36,675 bases of DNA, taken from contig CAJBRY010000680.1 in assembly GCA_903958085.1 (NCBI GenBank), forward strand, positions 1-36,675. The letters run 5' to 3'. Positions within the stretch are counted from its first letter, which is position 1, and the number at the start of each line of letters is the position of its first letter. Shown here piece after piece: positions 19,059-36,500 of the stretch. The notes under the pieces were generated by a model. That model saw nothing but the letters and a program-made list of their open reading frames with translations. It was not told where the DNA came from and made no database searches. Made by a program: the position numbers and the translations under genes. The DNA is from an uncultured Geobacteraceae bacterium (GTDB lineage Bacteria; Desulfobacterota; Desulfuromonadia; Geobacterales; Pseudopelobacteraceae).

Positions 19059-21623
19059 ATGGACTTCACCAGAATGCTGCACAAATTCACAGTTGTCCCA
19101 TCATTGACCGACGAATTGGCTGCGCTCCAGCGGGTGTCATACAATCTCTGGTGGTGCTGGGAGCAGGATGCTACCGCTCTTTTTCGTCGCCTGGATCCGG
19201 AACTCTGGAAAACGACCAGACATAATCCGGTAGAAATGCTTGGGATTTTGCAGCAGACTACTTTAGAGGGGTTAAAAAACGACGAAGGATTCATGGCACA
19301 TCTTAAGCTTGTTGATGAGAAACTCAGTGACTATCTTCAGGCAAAAACCTGGTTTCAAAAATCGGGACATGCTGATTCAAAGATAAAGATCGCCTATTTC
19401 TCTATGGAGTTCGGACTGCATGAATCTCTGCCGATTTATTCAGGGGGGCTCGGCATTCTGGCCGGAGATCATCTTAAATCAGCTTCCGACTTAGGTTTGC
19501 CGCTGGTCGGAGTCGGACTGCTCTACCGTCAGGGATATTTTCGTCAGTACCTGAATAATGAGGGATGGCAGCAGGAGTATTACCCTGAGAATGATTTTTA
19601 TAATCTCCCTTTAACTCTGGAACGGGATGAGAACGGAACACCACGCACCTTTGAGCTTGAATTTGGACCTCGCAGGTTCAAGGTTCACATCTGGCGTGTT
19701 CAGGTCGGGCGTGTCCCACTGTACCTGCTTGATACAAATCTCGAGGAAAACTCCACTGAAGACCGTCTTATAACCGCTCAACTCTATTTTGGCGACAAAG
19801 AGATGCGGATGATTCAGGAAATCCTGCTCGGTATCGGCGGCATCAGGGCTTTGAGAATGCTGGGTATAGTTCCTAACGTGTGTCATATGAACGAGGGTCA
19901 TGCTGCTTTTCTTGCACTGGAGCGCATTCGCCTTTTGATGAACAAGCGTGGCATTCGCTTTAACGAGGCTCGCGAGATAGTAAATGCCGGCAATATTTTT
20001 ACCACACATACCCCGGTTGAAGCAGGCATAGACCACTTTGCTCCCGATTTGCTGGATAAATATTTTTCCGGATATTTTACATCCTTCGGGATAAGCCATG
20101 ATGATTTTATCGGACTTGGGAGACAGAATCCGAAAAACCAGCAGGAATCTTTTTGTATGGCGGTGCTGGCTCTCAAACTTGCTGGACACGCAAACGGCGT
20201 TAGTCAGTTGCACGGCGAAGTATCACGCAAAATGTGGAAAAATCTCTGGCCTGAACTGCCGCAGGAACAAGTGCCACTGACATCCATAACAAACGGAGTA
20301 CATACCCGGACATGGATGTCCAACCACATGGGGAGCCTCCTGATACGTTATCTGGGAACTAGATGGCTCGATGATCCTACTGACCATAATGTTTGGCGCA
20401 GGATAGCTAAAATTCCGGATGCCGAGCTTTGGCGAACGAGGCAGAGCAGCAGGGAGAAACTGGTTGATTTTGCCCGTAAACGTTTGAAAGAACAGCTGAT
20501 TAAGGTTGGCGCCACAACAAAAGAAATTGCCACAGCAGAAGAGGTACTGGATCCAGAAGCTTTAACTATAGGTTTTGCACGACGCTTTGCCACCTATAAG
20601 CGCGGAACACTGCTTTTACGCGACCAGGAAAGATTGGCAGCCATTCTCAACAATCCGGAAATGCCTGTTCAGTTTATATTTGCCGGCAAGGCTCATCCGC
20701 AGGATCAAGAGGGTAAAGAGCTGATTCGTCAGATCGTGCAGGCATCCCATCAGGAACGCTTCCGACATCGCATAGTTTTCATCGAGGATTACGACATGGA
20801 AGTAGCCAGGCATCTGGTTCAAGGTGTTGATGTCTGGCTCAACACACCGCTCAGGCCAATGGAGGCCAGCGGCACCAGCGGCATGAAAGTGGCTTTTAAT
20901 GGAGGGCTGAACTTGAGCGTCCTTGATGGATGGTGGTGTGAAGGCTATCAGGGGAACAATGGTTGGGCTATCGGCAAAGGAGAGGTGTACGAAGAGATAG
21001 ACTACCAAAATCAGGTAGAGGGGCGTGCTCTTTATAACCTTCTTGAAAAAGAAGTCATTCCACATTTCTATGATCAGGGGAGCGACGGCGTGCCGCGATC
21101 ATGGGTTGCAACAATGAAGGCTTCGATGCAGAGTCTCTGCCCAGTATTTTCGACTGACCGCATGGTGCAGGAGTATGCGGAACACTCATATATCCCATCA
21201 TATAATCAGTGGCAGCGCCTGGTCGATGATGATTTGGCGTTGGCGCTTGATCTTGCTCGCTGGAAAGAACAGATTTTCAGGTTGTGGCCTCATGTACGTG
21301 TTGAACAGGCAGGAGCGGATGCGGGTGATGCCGTTATGGTCGGCAGTCAGGTTCCGGTCTATGCCAGGATTGCCTTAGGTGAAATCCCGGTTGATCAGGT
21401 CTCGGTTGAAGGTTATTTTGGAGTACTGGATTCGACCGGCAACATTCAAGGCGGAGAGACTGTTACCCTGGACATGAAAGAAGATCTAGGTGGCGGAGTA
21501 TATAGCTTCGGCGGGCTTTTTGAGTGCCGTTTTTGTGGAAGGCACGGATTTATGTTAAGGATAATTCCGCGCCATGCAGTTTTCGGCACTGTTTATGAAT
21601 CAGGTTATCTTATTTGGGGATAA
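19059..21623 (+). CDS. glgP: Alpha-glucan (glycogen/starch) phosphorylase, GT35 family
   Basis: IAYFSMEFGLHESLPIYSGGLGILAGDHLKSASDLGLPLVGVGLLY, HMNEGHAAFLALERI, FARRFATYKRGTLLL, RPMEASGTSGMKVAFNGGLNLSVLDGWWCEGY. Confidence 0.95.
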   Translation: MDFTRMLHKFTVVPSLTDELAALQRVSYNLWWCWEQDATALFRRLDPELWKTTRHNPVEMLGILQQTTLEGLKNDEGFMAHLKLVDEKLSDYLQAKTWFQKSGHADSKIKIAYFSMEFGLHESLPIYSGGLGILAGDHLKSASDLGLPLVGVGLLYRQGYFRQYLNNEGWQQEYYPENDFYNLPLTLERDENGTPRTFELEFGPRRFKVHIWRVQVGRVPLYLLDTNLEENSTEDRLITAQLYFGDKEMRMIQEILLGIGGIRALRMLGIVPNVCHMNEGHAAFLALERIRLLMNKRGIRFNEAREIVNAGNIFTTHTPVEAGIDHFAPDLLDKYFSGYFTSFGISHDDFIGLGRQNPKNQQESFCMAVLALKLAGHANGVSQLHGEVSRKMWKNLWPELPQEQVPLTSITNGVHTRTWMSNHMGSLLIRYLGTRWLDDPTDHNVWRRIAKIPDAELWRTRQSSREKLVDFARKRLKEQLIKVGATTKEIATAEEVLDPEALTIGFARRFATYKRGTLLLRDQERLAAILNNPEMPVQFIFAGKAHPQDQEGKELIRQIVQASHQERFRHRIVFIEDYDMEVARHLVQGVDVWLNTPLRPMEASGTSGMKVAFNGGLNLSVLDGWWCEGYQGNNGWAIGKGEVYEEIDYQNQVEGRALYNLLEKEVIPHFYDQGSDGVPRSWVATMKASMQSLCPVFSTDRMVQEYAEHSYIPSYNQWQRLVDDDLALALDLARWKEQIFRLWPHVRVEQAGADAGDAVMVGSQVPVYARIALGEIPVDQVSVEGYFGVLDSTGNIQGGETVTLDMKEDLGGGVYSFGGLFECRFCGRHGFMLRIIPRHAVFGTVYESGYLIWG

Positions 21624-21624
21624 T

Positions 21625-23850
21625 ATGGTTCTAGCAGCAGACATCCAGCAGCAGGTATATGACCTGCTTTCACGCACATCCAACATCTCTTTTGTCACTG
21701 CAGATCAAGCGGCTGGCAGTGGTAGTATACTGTCTCCCGGTCAGCGGGTAAGTGCAGAAGTCCTGTCCCTGTTGCCCAACAATCGTGTTCAGGTAAAAGT
21801 TGGCTCCGAACGTTTCAATCTGGAACTGCCTATGCAGGTTCGTGCCGGACAGACACTGGAGATGACTTTCCTATCCGCCGATCCTCGCTCAACCTTCGCC
21901 ATAACAAGGCAAGCAGGGATGGCTCCTCCTGTCAGCCTCTCAGATGCTTCGCGTCTGCTGAGTCTTCTGGTGTCAAACGAGCAGGTAGTTGATCCTAAAT
22001 TCCGCTCTTCACTTCAAAATATCGGAGACATGCTCCGCCGTTCATCAGGAGAGACAGCAGTTTTAGCCAATCTGATGGATGAAGCTTTGACTTACGGTGT
22101 TTTAAGGGGAGGGGTCAAATCACCACCAGAGGCCTCCGGTGAGTCGATGCAGGACCCCGGTGAGCCGTTGGGAGAGGCCTTTAAACAGGGTGCGCGCCGA
22201 TTGACTCCAGAACAGTCCAGGTTAGCTGCTTTTGAAAACAATGCATCCCAAATCCTCCGTACTATAGCCCAAAGTTCTCGCTTTATTCTGATAGAAGCTG
22301 CCAACCACCCGCTGACACCGCTCCCGTTAGTACCCGGGGAAGAGGTAGAGGCTCTTGTTACAGGAACTCTGCCTGGTGGCAGGGTGTTTGCTCAGATAGC
22401 CGGTACTACAATAGAAATGGTTGTTCCGCGTTCAGTTCAAAGCGGCGATATCCTCCGTCTTACCTATATATCATCACAGCCGGCTTTGACATTTGCAATT
22501 CCGCGTACTCTTCCTGACAACACTTCAGGTGTTCTCAGTGAGGCTGGGCGCTGGCTGAGTGTGCTGGAGCACAGCGATGGGGGAATATCAAGCCAGCAGA
22601 TGTATGTATTGGATCGGCTGAATACTGTTCTGAAAAGTCTTCCGCCGGACTCGCCTGCTTATACCGCATTTCTGGATGAAGCCATTACCTATCAGACAGT
22701 CATGCGGAATCAGAATCTCGCCGGTCAGCCTTCGGGAATGGCTTCTTCGCAGATTTCTGCCCAGCAAACCCCGGTTAGCGGGAACGGAATGGTTTTGAGT
22801 GATGATATGGCAAAATTACTTCAGGCCATCATCAGAGGGAACCGCCTGGCCTTGCTGGAATCTCAGAACCAGCAGACCATGCCGACAGGATTTGCCCCTG
22901 GAGAACAGCTAAGGGGAGAGGTGCTCTCCGCTCTTGGTGGCGGCCGCTTCATGGTTCAGGGTGCTGGCAGGAACTTTGAGTTCTTGCTACCTAAAGGATT
23001 TTCGAAAGGCAGTCAGGTCAATATGTTCTTCATAACGGAGGAACCTCATCAAACCTTTTTATTGACCCGTTTCGGTAGTCCAGGAGATTCAAGAGTCAGC
23101 GAAACAGGTCAATGGTTGAGTCGTTTTTTGGGGGAATCATCGGCTCAGGCAACTGTTCAGACTTCGCTGGGAATTTTGCGCACACTATTGTCAGGGCCTC
23201 CTACAGATGCGAATTTACTCGGGCGTATGCTTCAACAGGGACTTAAGGAAAGTGGACTCTTTTATGAGTCGCATCTCTCTCGTTGGTTTGGTGGAGATTT
23301 TTCTCTGGAGGACATTCTTCGTGAACCACAGGGGCGTCTATCTCCTCGTCTGGCGCAAAATGATGGCCATTTCATCCCCACTGCAGGTGATCTTGTGCGC
23401 GCCAGCATCCGAACCGGCTCTTCAGAGGTCATGGAGGCCGTTTTTAATAAAGCAGGAACCAGTATGGCTCATGAAGGAATTGCTGATCAGCGTACTATGC
23501 CGATAGTCAGTGAACAGCTCTCAACACTTCAAAACGGACAACTGCTATTCAGGGGAGATCTTTTCCCTGGTCAGCAGCTGGATTGGTCCGTTACCGAACG
23601 TGAGGCTGAACGTAACAAGTCTGGTGGGCGTGAACGGAATTGGGAAACCAGCGTTGCCATAACCCTGCCACATTTGGGACATGTGTCAGCAGAACTTATT
23701 TTTGATGGCACCCATGTGCTTATCAAAATTGATGTTGAAAATAGCAAGACCTTGCCGATTCTTGAAAAAGGAAAAGTCAGGCTGATCGATCAACTTGAGG
23801 CAGCCGGACTTACTCCGACAGATATACATATCAGCCATGCGTCCGCGTGA
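21625..23850 (+). CDS. FliK-like flagellar hook-length control protein with three internal repeats
   Basis: C-terminal Flg_hook-like domain (FRGDLFPGQQLDWSVTERE...VAITLPHLGHVSAELIFDGTHVLIKIDVE); ATG at 21625 one base after the glgP stop. Confidence 0.8.
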   Translation: MVLAADIQQQVYDLLSRTSNISFVTADQAAGSGSILSPGQRVSAEVLSLLPNNRVQVKVGSERFNLELPMQVRAGQTLEMTFLSADPRSTFAITRQAGMAPPVSLSDASRLLSLLVSNEQVVDPKFRSSLQNIGDMLRRSSGETAVLANLMDEALTYGVLRGGVKSPPEASGESMQDPGEPLGEAFKQGARRLTPEQSRLAAFENNASQILRTIAQSSRFILIEAANHPLTPLPLVPGEEVEALVTGTLPGGRVFAQIAGTTIEMVVPRSVQSGDILRLTYISSQPALTFAIPRTLPDNTSGVLSEAGRWLSVLEHSDGGISSQQMYVLDRLNTVLKSLPPDSPAYTAFLDEAITYQTVMRNQNLAGQPSGMASSQISAQQTPVSGNGMVLSDDMAKLLQAIIRGNRLALLESQNQQTMPTGFAPGEQLRGEVLSALGGGRFMVQGAGRNFEFLLPKGFSKGSQVNMFFITEEPHQTFLLTRFGSPGDSRVSETGQWLSRFLGESSAQATVQTSLGILRTLLSGPPTDANLLGRMLQQGLKESGLFYESHLSRWFGGDFSLEDILREPQGRLSPRLAQNDGHFIPTAGDLVRASIRTGSSEVMEAVFNKAGTSMAHEGIADQRTMPIVSEQLSTLQNGQLLFRGDLFPGQQLDWSVTEREAERNKSGGRERNWETSVAITLPHLGHVSAELIFDGTHVLIKIDVENSKTLPILEKGKVRLIDQLEAAGLTPTDIHISHASA
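21730..22113 (+). repeat. FliK-like protein internal repeat 1 (about 128 aa)
   Basis: LSPGQRVSAEVLSLLPNNRVQVKVGSERFNLELPMQVRAGQTLEMTFLSADPRSTFAITR...ASRLLSLLVS...MDEALTYGVLRGG. Confidence 0.7.
22326..22710 (+). repeat. FliK-like protein internal repeat 2 (about 128 aa)
   Basis: LVPGEEVEALVTGTLPGGRVFAQIAGTTIEMVVPRSVQSGDILRLTYISSQPALTFAIPR...AGRWLSVLEH...LDEAITYQTVMRN. Confidence 0.7.
22891..23268 (+). repeat. FliK-like protein internal repeat 3 (about 126 aa)
   Basis: FAPGEQLRGEVLSALGGGRFMVQGAGRNFEFLLPKGFSKGSQVNMFFITEEPHQTFLLTR...TGQWLSRFLG...LQQGLKESGLFYE. Confidence 0.7.
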
Positions 23851-24106
23851 CGAAGATCAGCGCCGGGCTGCGGCGCTATCCTATAAGCAGGGTTATTACG
23901 CACCTGTAGTAGTAGCCAGAGGGAAGGGAATAGCCGCGGAAGCGATCATTGCCTGTGCTCATGAAGCGGGAGTTTATGTTCATGAGTCACCAGACCTCGT
24001 AAGACTGTTAATGCAGGTTGATAATGATCAGTTTATACCACCAGAGCTGTATCGAGCAGTCGCAGAAGTTCTGGTCTGGTTACAGTGGATGGAGAGTCAG
24101 CAATAA
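23837..24106 (+). CDS. Short FlhB C-terminal-domain-like protein (FlhX/YlqH type)
   Basis: AAALSYKQGYYAPVVVARGKGIAAEAIIACAHEAGVYVHESPDLVRLLMQVDNDQFIPPELYRAVAEVLVWL matches the FlhB C-terminal domain layout; start overlaps the FliK-like 3' end by 14 nt. Confidence 0.85.
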   Translation: MRPRDEDQRRAAALSYKQGYYAPVVVARGKGIAAEAIIACAHEAGVYVHESPDLVRLLMQVDNDQFIPPELYRAVAEVLVWLQWMESQQ

Positions 24107-25599: not shown

Positions 25600-25684
25600 C
25601 CTGCGCACTGAAATCGAATAAATAACATGCAAAAAAATATATCCATACTTGTTATGGAAAACTACTAAAAGGAGCATTCCACCA

Positions 25685-26050
25685 ATGGCAAACATTCTAA
25701 TCGTTGATGATTCATCTACCATGCGCAAAATAATTTCAAGATCTCTACGTCAGGCTGGCTTGTCTGTTGATGAAATTTTTGAGGCTGGCGACGGCATTGA
25801 GGGGCTAGGTGTGATTGCCTCCGGCAAATCAATTCAATTGATACTTTCCGACATCAATATGCCGAACATGGATGGCCTTGAGTTTGTTAAGGCGGTTCGT
25901 GGCAATGGTAATTCAACTCCTATCGTTATGATCACTACAGAAGGCGGCGAAGAAATTATTGCCGAGGCAATGTCGAGCGGAGCAAACGACAGCATCAAAA
26001 AACCGTTCACTCCAGACCAGCTCCAGGAAAAGCTGGGAGGCCTGTTATGA
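25685..26050 (+). CDS. cheY: CheY-like single-domain response regulator
   Basis: ILIVDDSSTMRKII, LILSDINMPNMDGLEF, PIVMITTEG, SIKKPFTPDQL; start at ATG 25685 preceded by AAAAGGAG. Confidence 0.92.
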   Translation: MANILIVDDSSTMRKIISRSLRQAGLSVDEIFEAGDGIEGLGVIASGKSIQLILSDINMPNMDGLEFVKAVRGNGNSTPIVMITTEGGEEIIAEAMSSGANDSIKKPFTPDQLQEKLGGLL

Positions 26051-26553
26051 CTCTGAACCCGGACGTCGCCAGGTCAACTAACTTCACAGAAGATCAGATC
26101 GCCGGTTTTGTGATTGATGCAACCAGGGAAGTTTTTTCAACCATGGTCATGATGGATGTGGCCGACGACTTCCCACTAAAAGAGCCAGTCAGCCGTTTTA
26201 AATGTAGTATTACCGGCATGGTCGGTTTTGCAGGAACATACTCTGGCGTGATTTCAATCCACTGCCCTGTCGACCTGGCACTGAAGGTCACCTCAAACAT
26301 GCTCGGAATTGACTGTGATGAGGTCAATGAGGACCTTAACGATGCGATAGGAGAAATAGCCAACATGCTGGGGGGTAGTGTAAAACAGGTACTCTCCAAA
26401 GGTGGGCTGGATGTTAAGCTGTCGATTCCGACGGTTATATCAGGTGAAGACTATACTGTAAACTCGCTTTCCGACAATGATTGTGTGGTTGTTCCATTTA
26501 CTGTTGAAGGACATACACTTTTGGTTGGTCTCACATTGAAAGAGGAAGACTAG
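26047..26553 (+). CDS. CheX-like CheY-P phosphatase family protein
   Basis: DLNDAIGEIANMLGGSVKQVLS contains the ExxN phosphatase signature; ATGA overlap with cheY. Confidence 0.85.
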   Translation: MTLNPDVARSTNFTEDQIAGFVIDATREVFSTMVMMDVADDFPLKEPVSRFKCSITGMVGFAGTYSGVISIHCPVDLALKVTSNMLGIDCDEVNEDLNDAIGEIANMLGGSVKQVLSKGGLDVKLSIPTVISGEDYTVNSLSDNDCVVVPFTVEGHTLLVGLTLKEED

Positions 26554-26605
26554 CTTTGCCTAAACTGCCTTGTCGTGCGAAACCTGCACCGGAAGATAAT
26601 ATCTG

Positions 26606-27667
26606 ATGGACGGTTATACAACGCTATACGGAATGCTGGAAACGGCTCTGAAGCAGGCTGGTGAAGAAAGCGGCATGCTGTTAGGGCAGGAACTTTCTAT
26701 CACCCTTTCAGATTCTCTTTCTACAAGCAAGAGTTCATATTTTGGCGGGCTTGACGACGGCTGTTTCGTAATGGGTGTTGATTCTGGTGAGGCTTATCAG
26801 GGGCAGTTCTACCTGATTTTCTCACTGCGTGACGCCATAGTCATGAGTAGCATACTTCTTGGCATCCCACCCGCAAGAATTCAGGAAAAGAAACGCCTTT
26901 CGATCATTGAGAACGATGATATTGACGCTTTTTCTGAAATTGCCAATATGATCAATGGAGCCCTGAACACTGTTTTTCAGGGGACACTGCCTAATAAAGT
27001 CCGTCTCAAGCTGTTATCCCCAAAAAAATATATTCCTGAGATTGATCAAATAAGTCCGGAAGAGCCTATCCCAGATGGTGATTTCCTGATGTTCCGTTCC
27101 AAATTGGATATGCCGGGACAGGAAATGAACCATCTGGATGTCCTGATGCCGTTTGCGTTGGGCAATATGTTTGACCCACAGCCGGAGGTTGCTGAGGCTG
27201 AAACTGAAGTCGATGACTCAGGAGCGGGCAGTGATGAGGGCGCTGAAAATGTCAGTGATGAGGATGTTGTTGCAGAACCTGCTGCCAGCGGGATCGAAAG
27301 TATTATTGTGCTGGAAGACGATGAGGAGCAACGTCAGCAGATGATTGAGTTGCTTGCATTCACCGGTTATCAGGTAGCAGAAGGGACTCTGAACGCCGAC
27401 CTAAAGGAGTTGTTTGGTGGTAGAAACGTAAAACTTGTAATGATCGGCTCTCAAGATGCCGACGATCGTGAACTGGCTGTGTGTATCAAGGTCAACGCAA
27501 TGCGCCAGGATTTTCCTCCCCCAATCATCATGAGTGCTGAATGCTGGACAAGAACAGCCGTACTTAAGGCACTTAAATACGGAGCAAGAGATATTATCAT
27601 AAAACCTTTCAATGGTGACGATGTGACCTCAAAGGTACGCCGCTACTGCAAAATTGCTCCAGTCTAG
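26606..27667 (+). CDS. CheC/CheX-like domain fused to a degenerate receiver domain
   Basis: N-terminal AFSEIANMINGALNTVF (ExxN); acidic linker; C-terminal receiver fold SIIVLEDDEEQR...VKLVMIGSQ...PPIIMSAE...GARDIIIKPFNGDDV. Confidence 0.75.
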   Translation: MDGYTTLYGMLETALKQAGEESGMLLGQELSITLSDSLSTSKSSYFGGLDDGCFVMGVDSGEAYQGQFYLIFSLRDAIVMSSILLGIPPARIQEKKRLSIIENDDIDAFSEIANMINGALNTVFQGTLPNKVRLKLLSPKKYIPEIDQISPEEPIPDGDFLMFRSKLDMPGQEMNHLDVLMPFALGNMFDPQPEVAEAETEVDDSGAGSDEGAENVSDEDVVAEPAASGIESIIVLEDDEEQRQQMIELLAFTGYQVAEGTLNADLKELFGGRNVKLVMIGSQDADDRELAVCIKVNAMRQDFPPPIIMSAECWTRTAVLKALKYGARDIIIKPFNGDDVTSKVRRYCKIAPV

Positions 27668-30093: not shown

Positions 30094-30522
30094 ATGCAAA
30101 TAGAAGGTCTTTTCAGTAATACAATTACACTTTTGGGGAAAAGCGTTGACCTCAGGGCAAAGAATCAGAATTTGATCGCCTCCAATATTGCAAATGCCGA
30201 AACCCCGAATTTTGTGCCAAAATCATTGGCATTTGAAGAGGAATTGCAGGGGGCTCTGAAAAACAGAACAAACGGTCAGCGAGCGTCTTCACTTCCGCAT
30301 CAGCGACATATCCCGGTTCGAGGAGCAGGGGCTAGCCTACAGTCGGTCTCTGGTAAAATTATTGAAACGCCAGCCTTGACACCCGGCAAAGACGGCAATG
30401 CTGTAGAGCTTGAAAATGAAATGGGAAAACTGGCAGAAAACCAAATAATGTTTAATGCATCTGTTCAGATGCTGACAAAAAAATTCGAAGGATTGCGCTC
30501 TGCAATAAGGGAGGGTAAATAA
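30094..30522 (+). CDS. flgB: Flagellar basal-body rod protein FlgB
   Basis: LRAKNQNLIASNIANAETPNFVPKSLAFEEEL; followed by flgC, fliE. Confidence 0.94.
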   Translation: MQIEGLFSNTITLLGKSVDLRAKNQNLIASNIANAETPNFVPKSLAFEEELQGALKNRTNGQRASSLPHQRHIPVRGAGASLQSVSGKIIETPALTPGKDGNAVELENEMGKLAENQIMFNASVQMLTKKFEGLRSAIREGK

Positions 30523-30960
30523 TTGGACTTCTTCAGTTCTATGAATGTTAGTTCGTCGGCTCTTTCTGCCGAAAGAACACGAATGAATCTGATTTCAAGC
30601 AACCTTGCTAATGCCAATGCTACGCGGACCCCTGAAGGGGGGCCATACAAGCGGAAAGATGCTGTTTTTGCAGCGACACCTCTTGAAAATCAGTTCAATC
30701 GCGTGCTTGACGGTGCAACGGCCAAACAGGTGCGGAAAGTAGAAGTAACAGACATTGTTGAAGACCAGAATCCTCCTCGTCTCCAGTATGACCCGAGTCA
30801 TCCGGACGCTAATCCTCAAGGATATGTCGCGATGCCTAACGTCAACGTTGTTGAGGAAATGGCTGACATGATCAGTGCTACGCGTGCGTATGAAGCCAAT
30901 GTGACTGCAGTACAAGCTGCCAAAAGTATGGCTATGAAAACTCTGGAAATCGGCAGGTAA
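30523..30960 (+). CDS. flgC: Flagellar basal-body rod protein FlgC (TTG start)
   Basis: SSSALSAERTRMNLISSNLANANATRTPEGGPYKRKDAVF...VNVVEEMADMISATRAYEANVTAVQAAKSMAMKTLEI; TTG directly abuts the flgB TAA, GGAGGG RBS. Confidence 0.95.
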   Translation: MDFFSSMNVSSSALSAERTRMNLISSNLANANATRTPEGGPYKRKDAVFAATPLENQFNRVLDGATAKQVRKVEVTDIVEDQNPPRLQYDPSHPDANPQGYVAMPNVNVVEEMADMISATRAYEANVTAVQAAKSMAMKTLEIGR

Positions 30961-31007
30961 TTTTCTCGAACAAAGGAATAACCAGAAAACATTAAAGGGG
31001 ATTTACC

Positions 31008-31310
31008 ATGATAATTAATGGAATAAGTAGCGGAATTGGCATGTCGAAAGCCTTCCCGGAAATGACTAAAGCAAGCTCATCTTCTACGGCTGAAGGTGCT
31101 GGAAAATTTTTCAGTGAACTTGTGTCCAAAGTAAATGACATTCAAGTTCAGTCGGACAAGGCGATTCAGGGGCTTGCGAGCGGAGAGAACAAAAACCTTC
31201 ACGAAGTAATGATTGCTGTCGAGAAATCCAGCCTTTCGTTCCAGTTCATGTCGTCGGTACGCAACAAGGCAATTGAGGCTTATCAGGAAGTAATGAGGAT
31301 GCAGGTTTAA
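31008..31310 (+). CDS. fliE: Flagellar hook-basal body protein FliE
   Basis: [60 protein letters not shown]. Confidence 0.95.
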
Positions 31311-31356
31311 AGTCTATACTGCCGCTTAACCCGCAAAAGGAGTCTAAACTTTTCAA

Positions 31357-32931
31357 ATGCCAGAAGGAATTCGCAGACTTATAGAGCCTTTTACAGCTCT
31401 TTCGCCAGGGAAACAGATGATGATTGCTGTTGTAGCCTTTCTCTCAGCTGTCGCATTTGCAATTCTTATTTTCATCGCTAACCGTACGGATTACAAGCCA
31501 CTTTTTACTAACCTCACATCAGAAGATGCGGGTGAGATTGTCAAAAAACTGAAGGACTCCAAAACGCCCTATCAGATAACTCCAGACGGCAAAGGGGTTC
31601 TGGTTCCTTCTGATAAAGTTTATGAACTTCGCCTGACACTTGCTTCTGAGGGAATTCCGCAGGGTGGCGGTGTTGGATTTGAAATTTTTGACAGGAAAAA
31701 TTTCGGAATGACGGAGTTTGTGCAGAAACTCAATTATCAGCGGGCTTTGCAGGGTGAACTATCCCGCACAATTTCGCAGATTACCGGAGTTGAGCAGGCA
31801 CGAGTGCACCTTGTCATACCCGAAAAATCGCTTTTCAAGGACAACGAAAAACCGGCCACCGCTTCAATAGTTTTGAAGATGAAATCAAACCGCGCCCTCC
31901 GTGATTCTGAAGTTCAGGGGGTTATTCATCTGGTTTCGGCATCGATTGAGGGAATGGATCCCGAGCATGTCACCGTCCTCGATAGTCGCGGCAAGATTCT
32001 CAGCAAAGGCGGCAGCAGTGACCCTACAGCCCGCATGACTTCTGCCATGCAGGAAACACAGCGTACTTACGAAAAAAATGTTGAGGAGCGAATTCAGTCT
32101 CTGCTAGATCGAATTGTCGGTGGTGGTAAGTCGGTAGCCCGAGTCACAGCATCGTTTGATTTCAAACAGGTTGAAAGAGTTGAGGAAAAATTTGATCCAG
32201 AGTCAATTGCCGTTAGGAGTGAACAGCGCACAGAAGAGAAAGGAGCTTCCAGTACCAGCGGGTCAGGCGTTCCTGGAGTACAGACTAACCTCGGGCGAAC
32301 AACTGCAGGAAATGGGTCAACCTCGGGTGGTGGTTCAAAAAATGACGAAACACTTAATTATGAAGTAAGCCGTTCAACCGCAAAGATTATTGAACCGGTT
32401 GGAGCATTAAGCAAAATTTCAATAGCCGTTCTGGTTGATGGAAAGTATGAAGAGCCGGCTGCTGTAAAAGAAGGTCAAGTTGCAAAGGCGAAATATGTGC
32501 CGCGCTCCCCTGACGAGCTACAGAAAATTGAAACTCTTGTAAAAAGTGCGGTAGGCTTTAATCCTGAACGCGGAGATCAGATGAGCGTTCAAAACATACC
32601 ATTTCAGGATACCGGAGAAGCTGGCAGTAGCGAAACCGCTGCCTGGTGGAATAATCCGTTTTTTATCTCACTGGCAAAAAACCTGATGATTGGAGTTGGA
32701 TTTCTCGCATTGATCATGTTTGTTATTCGTCCTTTACTTTCATCGTTACGGTTGACAAGACGTCCAACGCTTGAGAGTTTTGAGGCGGTCGCAAGCGGGG
32801 ATCTGACGACTGCAGAAAGGGCTTTGATTAACTCGCAGATGGCAGAACAGCAGAGCTTGATTGAACAGGCCAAGAAAGACCCATATCAAGTTGCTCAAAT
32901 ATTACAAAACTGGGTTTCTGAGGATAAATAG
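31357..32931 (+). CDS. fliF: Flagellar MS-ring protein FliF
   Basis: YKPLFTNLTSEDAGEIVKKLKDSKTPYQI, GVGFEIFDRKNFGMTEFVQKLNYQRALQGELSRTI, ARVHLVIPEKSLF. Confidence 0.97.
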   Translation: MPEGIRRLIEPFTALSPGKQMMIAVVAFLSAVAFAILIFIANRTDYKPLFTNLTSEDAGEIVKKLKDSKTPYQITPDGKGVLVPSDKVYELRLTLASEGIPQGGGVGFEIFDRKNFGMTEFVQKLNYQRALQGELSRTISQITGVEQARVHLVIPEKSLFKDNEKPATASIVLKMKSNRALRDSEVQGVIHLVSASIEGMDPEHVTVLDSRGKILSKGGSSDPTARMTSAMQETQRTYEKNVEERIQSLLDRIVGGGKSVARVTASFDFKQVERVEEKFDPESIAVRSEQRTEEKGASSTSGSGVPGVQTNLGRTTAGNGSTSGGGSKNDETLNYEVSRSTAKIIEPVGALSKISIAVLVDGKYEEPAAVKEGQVAKAKYVPRSPDELQKIETLVKSAVGFNPERGDQMSVQNIPFQDTGEAGSSETAAWWNNPFFISLAKNLMIGVGFLALIMFVIRPLLSSLRLTRRPTLESFEAVASGDLTTAERALINSQMAEQQSLIEQAKKDPYQVAQILQNWVSEDK

Positions 32932-32967
32932 GCGTTGTAACTTTTTGTTTACTTTAGAAGGAAATTT

Positions 32968-33960
32968 ATGACTGGTTCAGAAAAAGCTGCCGTTTTGTTG
33001 CTGTACTTAGGCAATGATGTAACTGCCAAAGTATATGAACATATGGATGATAGTGAAATAAAAAAAATCAGTAAAAGCATGGCCTCCCTGGGACATGTTT
33101 CGCGCGAAACGATTATGACTATTGTCTCAGACTTTACTACGGTTATTGATCCAGAGGCCGGCATATTCTCTCAGGGCGATGAATTTGTTTTGAAGATTCT
33201 TGAAAAGGCGCTTGGCCCAGAAAAAGCTCAGATGTTGATGGATGAGTTACAAGCTTCCAGTTATGGTGACCTAGTCGATATTCTTGCAAATATGGATTCT
33301 AAAAGTATAGCCAACTTCCTTTCGCAAGAACACCCTCAGACCATTGCCGTCATCCTGGCTAAACTTAAATCAAAGCAAACCAGCGAAATTATCAGTCTAC
33401 TGCCACAAGAGTTACAGGCTGAAGTTGTCCTTCGGATAGCTGATGTAGAACAGGTTTCTCCAGACATACTGAAAGAAATTGACGATGTTATGAAACGTGA
33501 ACTGCAATCTATGGGGGGAACCCAGCGCTATAAGGTTGGTGGTATTGACAAAGTTGTCGATATGTTCAACCACTTTGAACGTAGTAAGGAAAAGCAGATA
33601 CTAGATAAACTGGACGTACTCAGTCCGCCTTTGTCTGAAATTATTCGTAAGCACCTCTTTACTTTCGAAGATGTATTTGCGCTGGATGACCGCAGTATAC
33701 AGTCTGTCATGCGCGAAGTTTCAAATGATACTTTGACTTTGGCCATGAAAACCTCTCCTGATGAAGTTAAGGAAAAGATTTTCAAGAATATCTCCAGTCG
33801 TGCAGCAGATATGATCAAGGAGGACCTGGAAGTCATGGGACCGGTACGACTTTCGGACGTCGAAAAAGCTCAGGGGGAAATCATAAAGATCGTACGCAAA
33901 ATGGAGGAAGAAGGGAAAATTGTTCTGGCAGGCCGTGGAAGCGACGATGTCCTCGTCTAA
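32968..33960 (+). CDS. fliG: Flagellar motor switch protein FliG
   Basis: EKAAVLLLYLG; EHPQTIAVILAKLK; C-terminal LFTFEDVFALDDRSIQSVMREVSNDTLTLAMK, RAADMIKEDLEVMGPVRLSDVEKAQ. Confidence 0.97.
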   Translation: MTGSEKAAVLLLYLGNDVTAKVYEHMDDSEIKKISKSMASLGHVSRETIMTIVSDFTTVIDPEAGIFSQGDEFVLKILEKALGPEKAQMLMDELQASSYGDLVDILANMDSKSIANFLSQEHPQTIAVILAKLKSKQTSEIISLLPQELQAEVVLRIADVEQVSPDILKEIDDVMKRELQSMGGTQRYKVGGIDKVVDMFNHFERSKEKQILDKLDVLSPPLSEIIRKHLFTFEDVFALDDRSIQSVMREVSNDTLTLAMKTSPDEVKEKIFKNISSRAADMIKEDLEVMGPVRLSDVEKAQGEIIKIVRKMEEEGKIVLAGRGSDDVLV

Positions 33961-34699
33961 GATAATAAAGCAGGCTGATTACATCGATGCCGGTGCTACA
34001 GAATATAGCTTCAGAAGTATAAACCACACTACAGCAGTAACTGCCGGTTCCGTTCAAAGTAGCGTTGGGTTTGTTCCGCTTGGTTTGTTCCAGGGATTTG
34101 ATCAGCCGGATTCATCTGGAGATGAGGCCGAGGATACAGGACCACCTCCCATTGAAATAAGCGAAGAAGAACTTAATAGAAAACTTAGTGACTCCTTTAA
34201 TGCCGGCCTTAAAGATGGAAAGGAACTGGCTGAACGAGGACTAGTGAATGTTTTCAGGGCGCTTCGGTCTTCAAGTGAATCAATACATGACCTTAGGGAT
34301 AAAATATTCAGGGAATCAGAGGATGAACTGATTAATCTTGTAATGCTCGTAGCCCGCAAAGTAATCATTCGGGAAATTGAGCAGGACAGATCAATTCTGG
34401 CTGGCGTCGTACAGAATGCGCTTGCCGGTTTGTCAGCACGCGAAGAAATAACGGTTCGCATCAATCCGGATGACTATCTGCTAGTTACCTCAGGGCGGGA
34501 CGAGTTGCTGCAAAAGGAACTGCTAAACGAGCGATTGCTGCTGAAGCCAGATCCATCTGTTGGAGTTGGTTTTTGTCTTGTAGATACGGAAATGGGGACT
34601 ATCGACGCTTCTCTGGACGGCCAAATGGAACAGATATACCGAACTCTTCTCGAACAGCGTACCGCCGCTGCAGCAGCTGAGGCCTCCACCGTTGCATGA
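33947..34699 (+). CDS. fliH: Flagellar assembly protein FliH
   Basis: Between fliG and fliI; ISEEELNRKLSDSFNAGLKDGKELAERGL; C-terminal LLKPDPSVGVGFCLVDTEMGTIDASLDGQMEQI. Start ATG 33947 overlaps the fliG end. Confidence 0.9.
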   Translation: MSSSKIIKQADYIDAGATEYSFRSINHTTAVTAGSVQSSVGFVPLGLFQGFDQPDSSGDEAEDTGPPPIEISEEELNRKLSDSFNAGLKDGKELAERGLVNVFRALRSSSESIHDLRDKIFRESEDELINLVMLVARKVIIREIEQDRSILAGVVQNALAGLSAREEITVRINPDDYLLVTSGRDELLQKELLNERLLLKPDPSVGVGFCLVDTEMGTIDASLDGQMEQIYRTLLEQRTAAAAAEASTVA

Positions 34700-34705
34700 T
34701 GTGCC

Positions 34706-36025
34706 ATGCCTGACTTAAAACTCAATCTTGAAAAATATCGTTCTGCACTTGCGACTACAAAGTCTGTCAGGTTGCAGGGGAAAGTTACTCAGGTTGTTGG
34801 ACTGGTAATAGAAGGATATTGTCCGGACACTTCGGTCGGTGCTATCTGCGAAATCAAGCCTCTTGATGGTGAGCCTATCCCTGCCGAAGTAGTTGGCTTT
34901 CGTAATAATAAAACACTCTTGATGCCCCTTGGCGAGCTAAGGGGTGTAGGTCTTGACAGCCTGATATCTGTTCGGCGTGATAATGCTTCCATGGGAGTGG
35001 GACCCCTAATGCTCGGGCGGGTTATAGACGGTCTTGGCAATCCGATTGATGATAAAGGACCCATCGACGTAGAGGAAGAGTACCCTATATATGCGTTGCC
35101 TGTAAATCCAATGTCCCGGCCTCCTATTCGGAAACCACTGGATCTTGGAATCCGCAGCATCAATGGTTTGTTGACCTGCGGTCAGGGTCAACGAGTCGGA
35201 ATTATGGCAGGCTCCGGCGTCGGCAAATCTACCTTGCTGGGTATGATAGCCCGCTATACAGAAGCCGACGTGAACGTTATTGCCCTAATAGGAGAACGTG
35301 GCCGTGAGCTGCGTGAATTTATTGAAAAAGATTTGCAGGAACTGGGACTTAAGAAGTCTGTCGTTGTAGTTGCAACCTCAGATCAGCCCCCTCTAGTCAG
35401 GATGCGCGGCGCCTATATTGCTACCACAATAGCAGAGTATTTCAAAAATCAAGGGAAAAAAGTCCTTTTGATGATGGACTCAGCAACCCGTTTTGCAATG
35501 GCAATGCGCGAGGTAGGTCTTGCCATTGGCGAACCTCCAACCACAAAAGGCTATACACCGTCCGTCTTTGCCGCATTGCCGAAACTACTTGAAAGGACAG
35601 GAAATTTCCCTGAGGGGAGCATCACAGCTCTATACACAGTGCTTGTGGAAGGTGACGACTTCAACGAACCTATTTCCGATGCAATGCGCAGCATTCTTGA
35701 TGGGCATATAGTCTTGTCGCGTGACCTGGCTGCTCGAACCATCTATCCTCCTATTGATATCCTTGCAAGTGCAAGCCGCGTCATGACAGATGTCGCATCA
35801 AGGGAGCATCTGGATGTTGCCTCAAAATTCAAGGAAGTGCTGGCGACATATCGTCAATCAGAAGATTTGATAAATATTGGTGCCTACAAGGCCGGGAGCA
35901 ATTCCGGTATAGATTATGCTATAGCCCATATTGCACAGATGCAGTCCTTTATGAAGCAGGCGGTGCATGATCCGGTGATGCTTGAAGAAGCCGTCAAGGA
36001 TTTGAAAACCATGTTTGCATTCTGA
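34706..36025 (+). CDS. fliI: Flagellum-specific ATP synthase FliI
   Basis: GIMAGSGVGKSTLLGMIARYTEADVNVIALIGERGREL, KKVLLMMDSATRFAMAMREVGLAIGEPPTTKGYTPSVFAALPKLLER. Confidence 0.97.
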   Translation: MPDLKLNLEKYRSALATTKSVRLQGKVTQVVGLVIEGYCPDTSVGAICEIKPLDGEPIPAEVVGFRNNKTLLMPLGELRGVGLDSLISVRRDNASMGVGPLMLGRVIDGLGNPIDDKGPIDVEEEYPIYALPVNPMSRPPIRKPLDLGIRSINGLLTCGQGQRVGIMAGSGVGKSTLLGMIARYTEADVNVIALIGERGRELREFIEKDLQELGLKKSVVVVATSDQPPLVRMRGAYIATTIAEYFKNQGKKVLLMMDSATRFAMAMREVGLAIGEPPTTKGYTPSVFAALPKLLERTGNFPEGSITALYTVLVEGDDFNEPISDAMRSILDGHIVLSRDLAARTIYPPIDILASASRVMTDVASREHLDVASKFKEVLATYRQSEDLINIGAYKAGSNSGIDYAIAHIAQMQSFMKQAVHDPVMLEEAVKDLKTMFAF

Positions 36026-36056
36026 TTTCGACTGTTTGTCGTGGGAGTAACCGGCA

Positions 36057-36500
36057 ATGGCTGGTAAAACTTTTGAGCTTGAACAGGTTTTAACATATCG
36101 CCGCGAAATGGAAAGGGTTCGCAAACAGGAGTTTGCCACTGCCAGGCAGCAGCTTGAATATGCCAATCATGAATTGAAGCGGGAAGAACAACTGGTAGAC
36201 TTATTGACACAGGAGTTTCAAAGATGTCAGCAGGAGATGCAATGTATTGATGATCTACGAATGTATTCTGATTTTTTCGGACGCAAAAGAGAAGAGATAA
36301 AGCTGCAGAAAGAGCAGATAGAGCAACTGGATGAAGTAATGAACGAAAAAAGGGCTGAATTATTGGAAGCAAGTAAGGATAAAAAAGTTCTTGAATCGTT
36401 AAAACAAAAAAAGGCTGAAGAATTTAAACAGGAAATGGCTACCAAGGAACGAAATTTCCTTGATGAGATTTCTATACAGAAAAAGGTCAAAACGTCTTGA
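36057..36500 (+). CDS. fliJ: Flagellar export protein FliJ
   Basis: Coiled-coil FELEQVLTYRREMERVRKQEFATARQQLEYANHELKREEQ; directly after fliI. Confidence 0.9.
   Translation: MAGKTFELEQVLTYRREMERVRKQEFATARQQLEYANHELKREEQLVDLLTQEFQRCQQEMQCIDDLRMYSDFFGRKREEIKLQKEQIEQLDEVMNEKRAELLEASKDKKVLESLKQKKAEEFKQEMATKERNFLDEISIQKKVKTS

Follow-up and report, generated by a model that had tools for sequence, protein, structure and literature searches.

A three-module FliK paralogue coupled to a stand-alone FlhB C-terminal domain in an uncultured Geobacteraceae bacterium and its flagellated relatives

The window, that is, the whole stretch of 36,675 nucleotides analysed here (contig CAJBRY010000680.1 of an uncultured Geobacteraceae bacterium), carries a long gene, fliK2, for a second FliK-type protein, followed by the partner gene flhX and, further on, by a cluster of flagellar genes (Table 1). 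An alternative in-frame ATG of fliK2 at position 21574 would give a protein of 758 aa and would overlap a glycogen-phosphorylase-type gene that ends at 21623; the later start is preferred because GGGGAT lies directly 5′ of it and because it agrees with the start of the homologues. The upstream gene, of the glycogen/alpha-glucan phosphorylase type (19059-21623), ends one base 5′ of the fliK2 start codon. A gene of this type is also present 5′ of fliK2 in several relatives (L039, L040, L045, L046, L048, L079 and L085), and a homologue adjoins flhB in L161. At the other end of fliK2, the sequence shared with flhX reads ATGCGTCCGCGTGA. Some 6 kb separate the fliK2-flhX pair, which follows metabolic genes, from the flagellar cluster, and fliK2 itself stands about 12 kb before fliJ, which places it outside the fliJ-flgD interval. 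Between flhX and flgB (25649-27667) are found genes for a CheY-like receiver and a CheX phosphatase, as well as one for a protein of 353 aa that has a receiver domain at its C-terminus and a stretch with weak likeness to CheX.

Table 1. Features of the fliK2-flhX region and of the flagellar cluster, in positions of the window
Feature	Position	Strand	Evidence or remark
fliK2, 741 aa, second FliK-type protein, three modules and T3S4 domain	21625..23850	+	ORF, self-alignment, Pfam, profile, AlphaFold2
Module A (predicted helix, six-stranded barrel, helices)	21664..22125	+	Self-alignment, profile, AlphaFold2, module tree
Module B	22258..22731	+	Self-alignment, profile, AlphaFold2, module tree
Module C, its end running into the FYESHL segment	22822..23295	+	Self-alignment, profile, AlphaFold2, module tree
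FYESHL...W..G...L..EPQGRLS segment	23260..23343	+	Conserved more than any other part of the family
C-terminal T3S4 / Flg_hook domain (PF02120), without the ~53-aa canonical tail	23617..23844	+	Pfam, fold match
flhX, stand-alone FlhB C-terminal domain, no NPTH	23837..24106	+	PF01312 columns 262-334; 14-nt overlap with the end of fliK2
flgB, flgC, fliE, fliF, fliG, fliH, fliI, fliJ cluster	30094..36500	+	In relatives followed by fliK and flgD

A sequence-only reading of this DNA had proposed that the fliK2 protein is built from three tandem modules of about 127 aa, and the presence of three homologous modules is now confirmed. Local self-alignment scored 151 for A-B, 121 for A-C and 168 for B-C, against a maximum of 58 in shuffled sequences (500 per pair), and a profile of related modules found exactly three matches in the protein, at 188-196 bits. 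It is the proposed length that did not hold, since the extents of these matches (residues 31-184, 229-386 and 417-574 in the 758-aa numbering) give a module of about 150-160 aa. The three copies are pairwise 21-28% identical, whereas orthologous modules of different proteins share 67-70%, and no family of DNA repeats exceeding 19 nt was found. Such a low identity together with the lack of a long DNA repeat points to an old duplication, and the same figures rule out recent or concerted repeats.

Two outcomes had been named beforehand as telling against the repeat, a lack of significant repeats and blocks without a common fold, and neither was observed. The AlphaFold2 model, built with 42 homologues, predicts the same order of elements in all three blocks, a helix followed by six strands and then helices (in the 741-aa numbering, H2-18, E21-94 and H105-161 for block A; H195-217, E220-293 and H306-364 for block B; H393-404, E408-481 and H493-555 for block C). 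The barrels of the three blocks reached a pLDDT of about 75-90 within models of moderate overall confidence (mean pLDDT 64 and 67), and for the ancestral unit, taken from a deep alignment of 94 sequences, a six-stranded barrel was predicted at a pLDDT of about 90, the helices after it being less certain. Foldseek comparison of the module retrieved OB-type barrels (IF1/eIF1A) as weak matches, with E at least 0.05. This likeness is to be read as a hint, which agrees with Pfam, where a few members weakly match eIF-1a and SH3-type domains, and the module may tentatively be described as an OB/SH3-like barrel with flanking helices. No Pfam family covered the module generally among the 42 members scanned, and PDB sequence searches with the module profile and with the C-domain gave nothing significant. 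Matches of the full model to metallo-beta-lactamases were not significant either and were set aside.

Behind their last module, all Geobacter-type members show the motif FYESHL (or FYEAHL)...W..G...L..EPQG.LS, which was not found in the canonical FliK loci L001-L030; the window protein has both the barrel module and this segment upstream of its C-domain. The assignment of the protein as FliK-like, with one FliK-type domain at its C-terminus, was upheld by a match of the last 75 residues to PF02120 (Flg_hook) at 42.9 bits (E 4.4e-11; cut-off 29.8), and all of the 42 aligned homologues match the same family at E ≤ 0.01. The solved structure nearest to the full model is the substrate-switch domain of PscP (5cuk; probability 1.00, rmsd 2.1 over 66 columns, E 0.02), which is the best fold match of the FliK2 C-terminal domain. 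PscP/YscP is an injectisome ruler and is not known to have barrel modules.

The end of the protein departs from the canonical pattern. The T3S4 core reaches residue 740 of 741, and the chain stops right after it, whereas in canonical FliK the core is followed by a tail with a median of 53 aa. The canonical ending (L/V)D(I/V/L/M)x(Y/F/M) was found in 27 of 32 rows, the others having N for D (three), one variant and one cut sequence. No such ending is found in 113 of 124 module-bearing FliKs, the window protein among them. The remaining 11 keep an LLD-type tail and all fall in a divergent Pseudomonadota group, so that the absence of the trigger tail from FlhX-linked FliKs is not universal. In small-genome Pseudomonadota (L176-L187), the divergent FlhX-linked FliKs measure 581-622 aa and carry a mid-protein barrel and the LLD-type C-terminal tail. 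These proteins were also considered as a second multi-barrel lineage and rejected as such: hhalign clearly supports a barrel at about 206-360 (96.6), allows for an N-terminal one (75.8) and gives no support to a middle one.

Three modules are found in almost every gene-bearing member of the window's family (65/76 genomes, nine genera), and also in named isolates such as those of Oryzomonas and Pelotalea. A single module is present in Geotalea, Geomonas and Betaproteobacteria, and relatives beyond the family mostly have one module or the FYESHL segment alone. The module tree gives A, B and C a clade each, with supports of 99/97, 100/98 and 100/99 (the last holding once a contig-truncated protein is counted); the triplication is thus a single event that preceded the radiation of the family, the copies not having been homogenised since. 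A candidate single-module protein, L108, was discarded, as its contig begins inside the gene and its module groups with C. A lone-module FliK2 within the three-module family is encoded in genome G613 (L191, 6881-7855, on the same contig as L066). Over its first 100 residues this protein shares 74% identity with module A of a genus mate, over the following stretch 68% with module C, and its tail falls in the three-module family, closest to the same genus mates; judged from its sequence, it is a secondary three-to-one deletion in which the A barrel was fused to the C helices. The three-module architecture is real, ancient and family-wide.

The length of the protein is nearly fixed. In 28 genus members, FliK2 measures 714-766 aa (CV 1.6%), as against 402 to 1220 aa for canonical FliK in the same genus (CV 32%), both taken from stop-to-stop frames, and this near constancy beside a variable canonical FliK disfavours repeat number as a length ruler. 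The sequence-only reading had suggested that the number of repeats could relate to length control, a proposal that found no support: three modules are fixed almost throughout the family and one is the number elsewhere, the paralogue keeps its length where canonical FliK varies threefold, and the modules belong to separate A, B and C clades, all of which speaks against length-tuning by repeat number.

It is the partner gene, overlapping and absent from the earlier reading, that says most about function. The product of flhX matches only the C-terminal columns of the FlhB family (PF01312) and has no membrane part. Full FlhB proteins of relatives carry NPTH at residue 268-269, and the alignment of FlhX begins just past this cleavage site, so that FlhX is the counterpart of the self-cleaved FlhB fragment (FlhB-CCD); the name FlhX is the one used for small FlhB C-terminal genes (PMC9321776, PMC10746217). 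FlhX follows FliK2 directly on its 3′ side in 106 of the 108 module-bearing loci, in most cases with an overlap; of the two loci that differ, one is truncated by the end of its contig. The association extends to Pseudomonadota: of 299 sampled genomes, 26 were matched by a barrel/FYESHL profile from which FlhX was absent, and FlhX was adjacent in all 26.

The pair follows flagella. Among 58 genomes surveyed, comprising the window's own and its relatives, 47 have flagellar genes and 11 do not, and FlhX was found in 41/47 of the former and 0/11 of the latter (Fisher p 5e-8), with G000 and G002 counted as FlhX-bearing flagellated genomes although flhB is only partial in them. Some flagellated relatives lack the pair (G037, G043, G044, G045 and G049), which means that FliK2-FlhX is not essential. 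Neither FliK nor FlhB is present in G007, G028, G033, G034 and G035, all of the same genus; flagella were apparently lost within the genus, together with the pair. With the exception of G020, which carries 9% contamination, no second full-length FlhB was found in the genomes surveyed.

The sequence-only reading had also pointed to a possible second, canonical fliK downstream of fliJ, and in relatives there is one: canonical fliK lies between fliJ and flgD, in addition to fliK2 (shown in G003 and G055). Two FliKs are found in nearly all flagellated genus members, and at least two FliK genes in 34/34 carriers checked among the named and Pseudomonadota genomes. The window's own genome yielded one FliK; its assembly consists of 804 contigs and the present contig ends just after fliJ, before the position in question, and for this reason the canonical fliK of the host is expected to sit in an assembly gap.

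Compared with canonical FliK (PF02120), FliK2 has in common the T3S4/Flg_hook C-domain over the curated cut-off and its occurrence in flagellated genomes, but has folded modules (as predicted) in place of a variable ruler region, no tail of about 53 aa, another locus than fliJ-flgD and a coupling to FlhX. fliK2 is a flagellar paralogue coupled to FlhX, and not the standard ruler FliK. In Bacillus subtilis, ylqG-ylqH is presumably a FliK-domain gene beside an FlhB C-terminal gene, upstream of flgB. The stand-alone FlhB C-terminal homologues of the FlhX/HP1575 kind correspond to the partner gene in the window, a protein equivalent to FlhB from the cleavage site on, whereas the three-module FliK2 is a separate protein. 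In Pseudomonas putida, pp4328-4329 form an operon of a FliK homologue and an FlhB-domain protein under the control of FleQ (PMC5026340), and match fliK2-flhX as the same gene pair by the description given there. A flhX-fliK pair was also noted in Nitratiruptor (PMC9321776). The gene pair was thus already known and the three-module form is new, while the pair is functionally unstudied: no functional study of it was found in the openly accessible literature.

Several explanations can be given for such a protein. As a second secreted molecular ruler, FliK2 would be lengthened by its three modules and would set a longer or a second length checkpoint. The T3S4 domain is compatible with this idea, and within the genus the lengths of paralogue and canonical FliK are weakly correlated (Spearman 0.42, p 0.025, phylogeny uncorrected). 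Moreover, homologues of family f4 are also long (555-668 aa) by means of a Pro/Ser/Thr-rich linker and not of extra modules, so that length was gained twice by different routes; in three loci of this family (L051, L052 and L056), one module is accompanied by an insert of about 300 residues, rich in Pro, Ser and Thr, that separates the EPQG segment from the T3S4 domain. A ruler nevertheless seems improbable, given a module count that stays fixed while canonical FliK of the same genus covers its whole range of lengths, modules that are predicted to be folded and that evolve as three separate clades rather than as interchangeable repeats, a family member (G613) that lives with a single fused module, the missing trigger tail, and the presence of a standard ruler FliK in relatives. 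Much more remote is a service to a non-flagellar export system such as a pilus or an injectisome, which the sequence-only reading had likewise allowed and which would suit the distance of the pair from the flagellar cluster, behind metabolic genes. Its absence from all 11 flagella-less relatives, the lack of a second full-length FlhB outside the contaminated G020, the proximity of flgB-fliJ and the membership of the P. putida counterpart in the FleQ flagellar regulon (PMC5026340) speak together against it.

What is known of the export gate suggests another role. In Salmonella, FlhB-CCD keeps the gate in its early mode, removal of both this domain and Fluke leaves secretion locked in the late mode, and it has been proposed that FliK destabilises and ejects FlhB-CCD through its terminal residues (PMC13344023, 2026); FliKC binds FlhB (PMC6972891). 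A protein that has the binding domain and lacks the trigger, and that is coupled to a free FlhB domain of this kind, best fits a holder or supplier of FlhB-CCD. The reading that we favour, with a confidence that stops a little short of even, is that this second, FlhX-linked FliK is a flagellar export accessory that would bind FlhX or FlhB-CCD and moderate the switch, and not a hook ruler. Its T3S4 domain may bind FlhX and/or FlhB-CCD and, without the tail whose last residues would unseat FlhB-CCD, would hold this domain rather than eject it. In this way FliK2-FlhX might keep or restore the gate in the early-secretion (rod/hook) mode, for example if FliK2 stored FlhX as a spare FlhB-CCD and handed it to FlhB, and a gate held early would moderate the moment when the ruler FliK flips the switch. 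Docking to the gate or to FlhX would be the task of the barrels, and the family-wide triplication could have added docking sites with separate, specialised roles. Both the binding partner of FliK2 and the direction of its effect on switching are what we infer here. FlhX could also act alone, with FliK2 only as its chaperone. FliK2 would then be mainly a chaperone or inhibitor of FlhX, an active spare part of FlhB kept soluble or silent until needed, as the overlap of the two genes, their near-perfect co-occurrence and the equivalence of FlhX to the cleaved FlhB domain would allow; the title of Wand et al. 2006, as cited in PMC2923134, likewise states that an FlhB C-terminal homologue of Helicobacter pylori can replace deleted FlhB-CC. 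We regard this explanation as rather unlikely, as it leaves three large barrels unexplained; it also shades into the export-accessory reading, and sequence cannot separate the two.

The change of substrate at the type III export gate is an old problem, and in many flagellated bacteria a FliK without the ejecting tail is coupled to a free FlhB domain. In its boldest form, which we put forward as a speculation with the chances against it, the export-accessory reading would make FliK2-FlhX a widespread counter-switch cassette, in which a trigger-less FliK and a free FlhB-CCD re-lock the gate or hold it early, and whose barrel, in a single lineage related to Geobacter, would have been triplicated and the three copies fixed as docking domains with specialised tasks. 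The expected effect of the pair, a switch that is delayed, reset or buffered, makes it a direct test of the ejection model. Moreover, the barrel module is a domain without a Pfam model of its own, and its triplication of single origin, together with a natural one-module revertant, provides a ready-made domain experiment.
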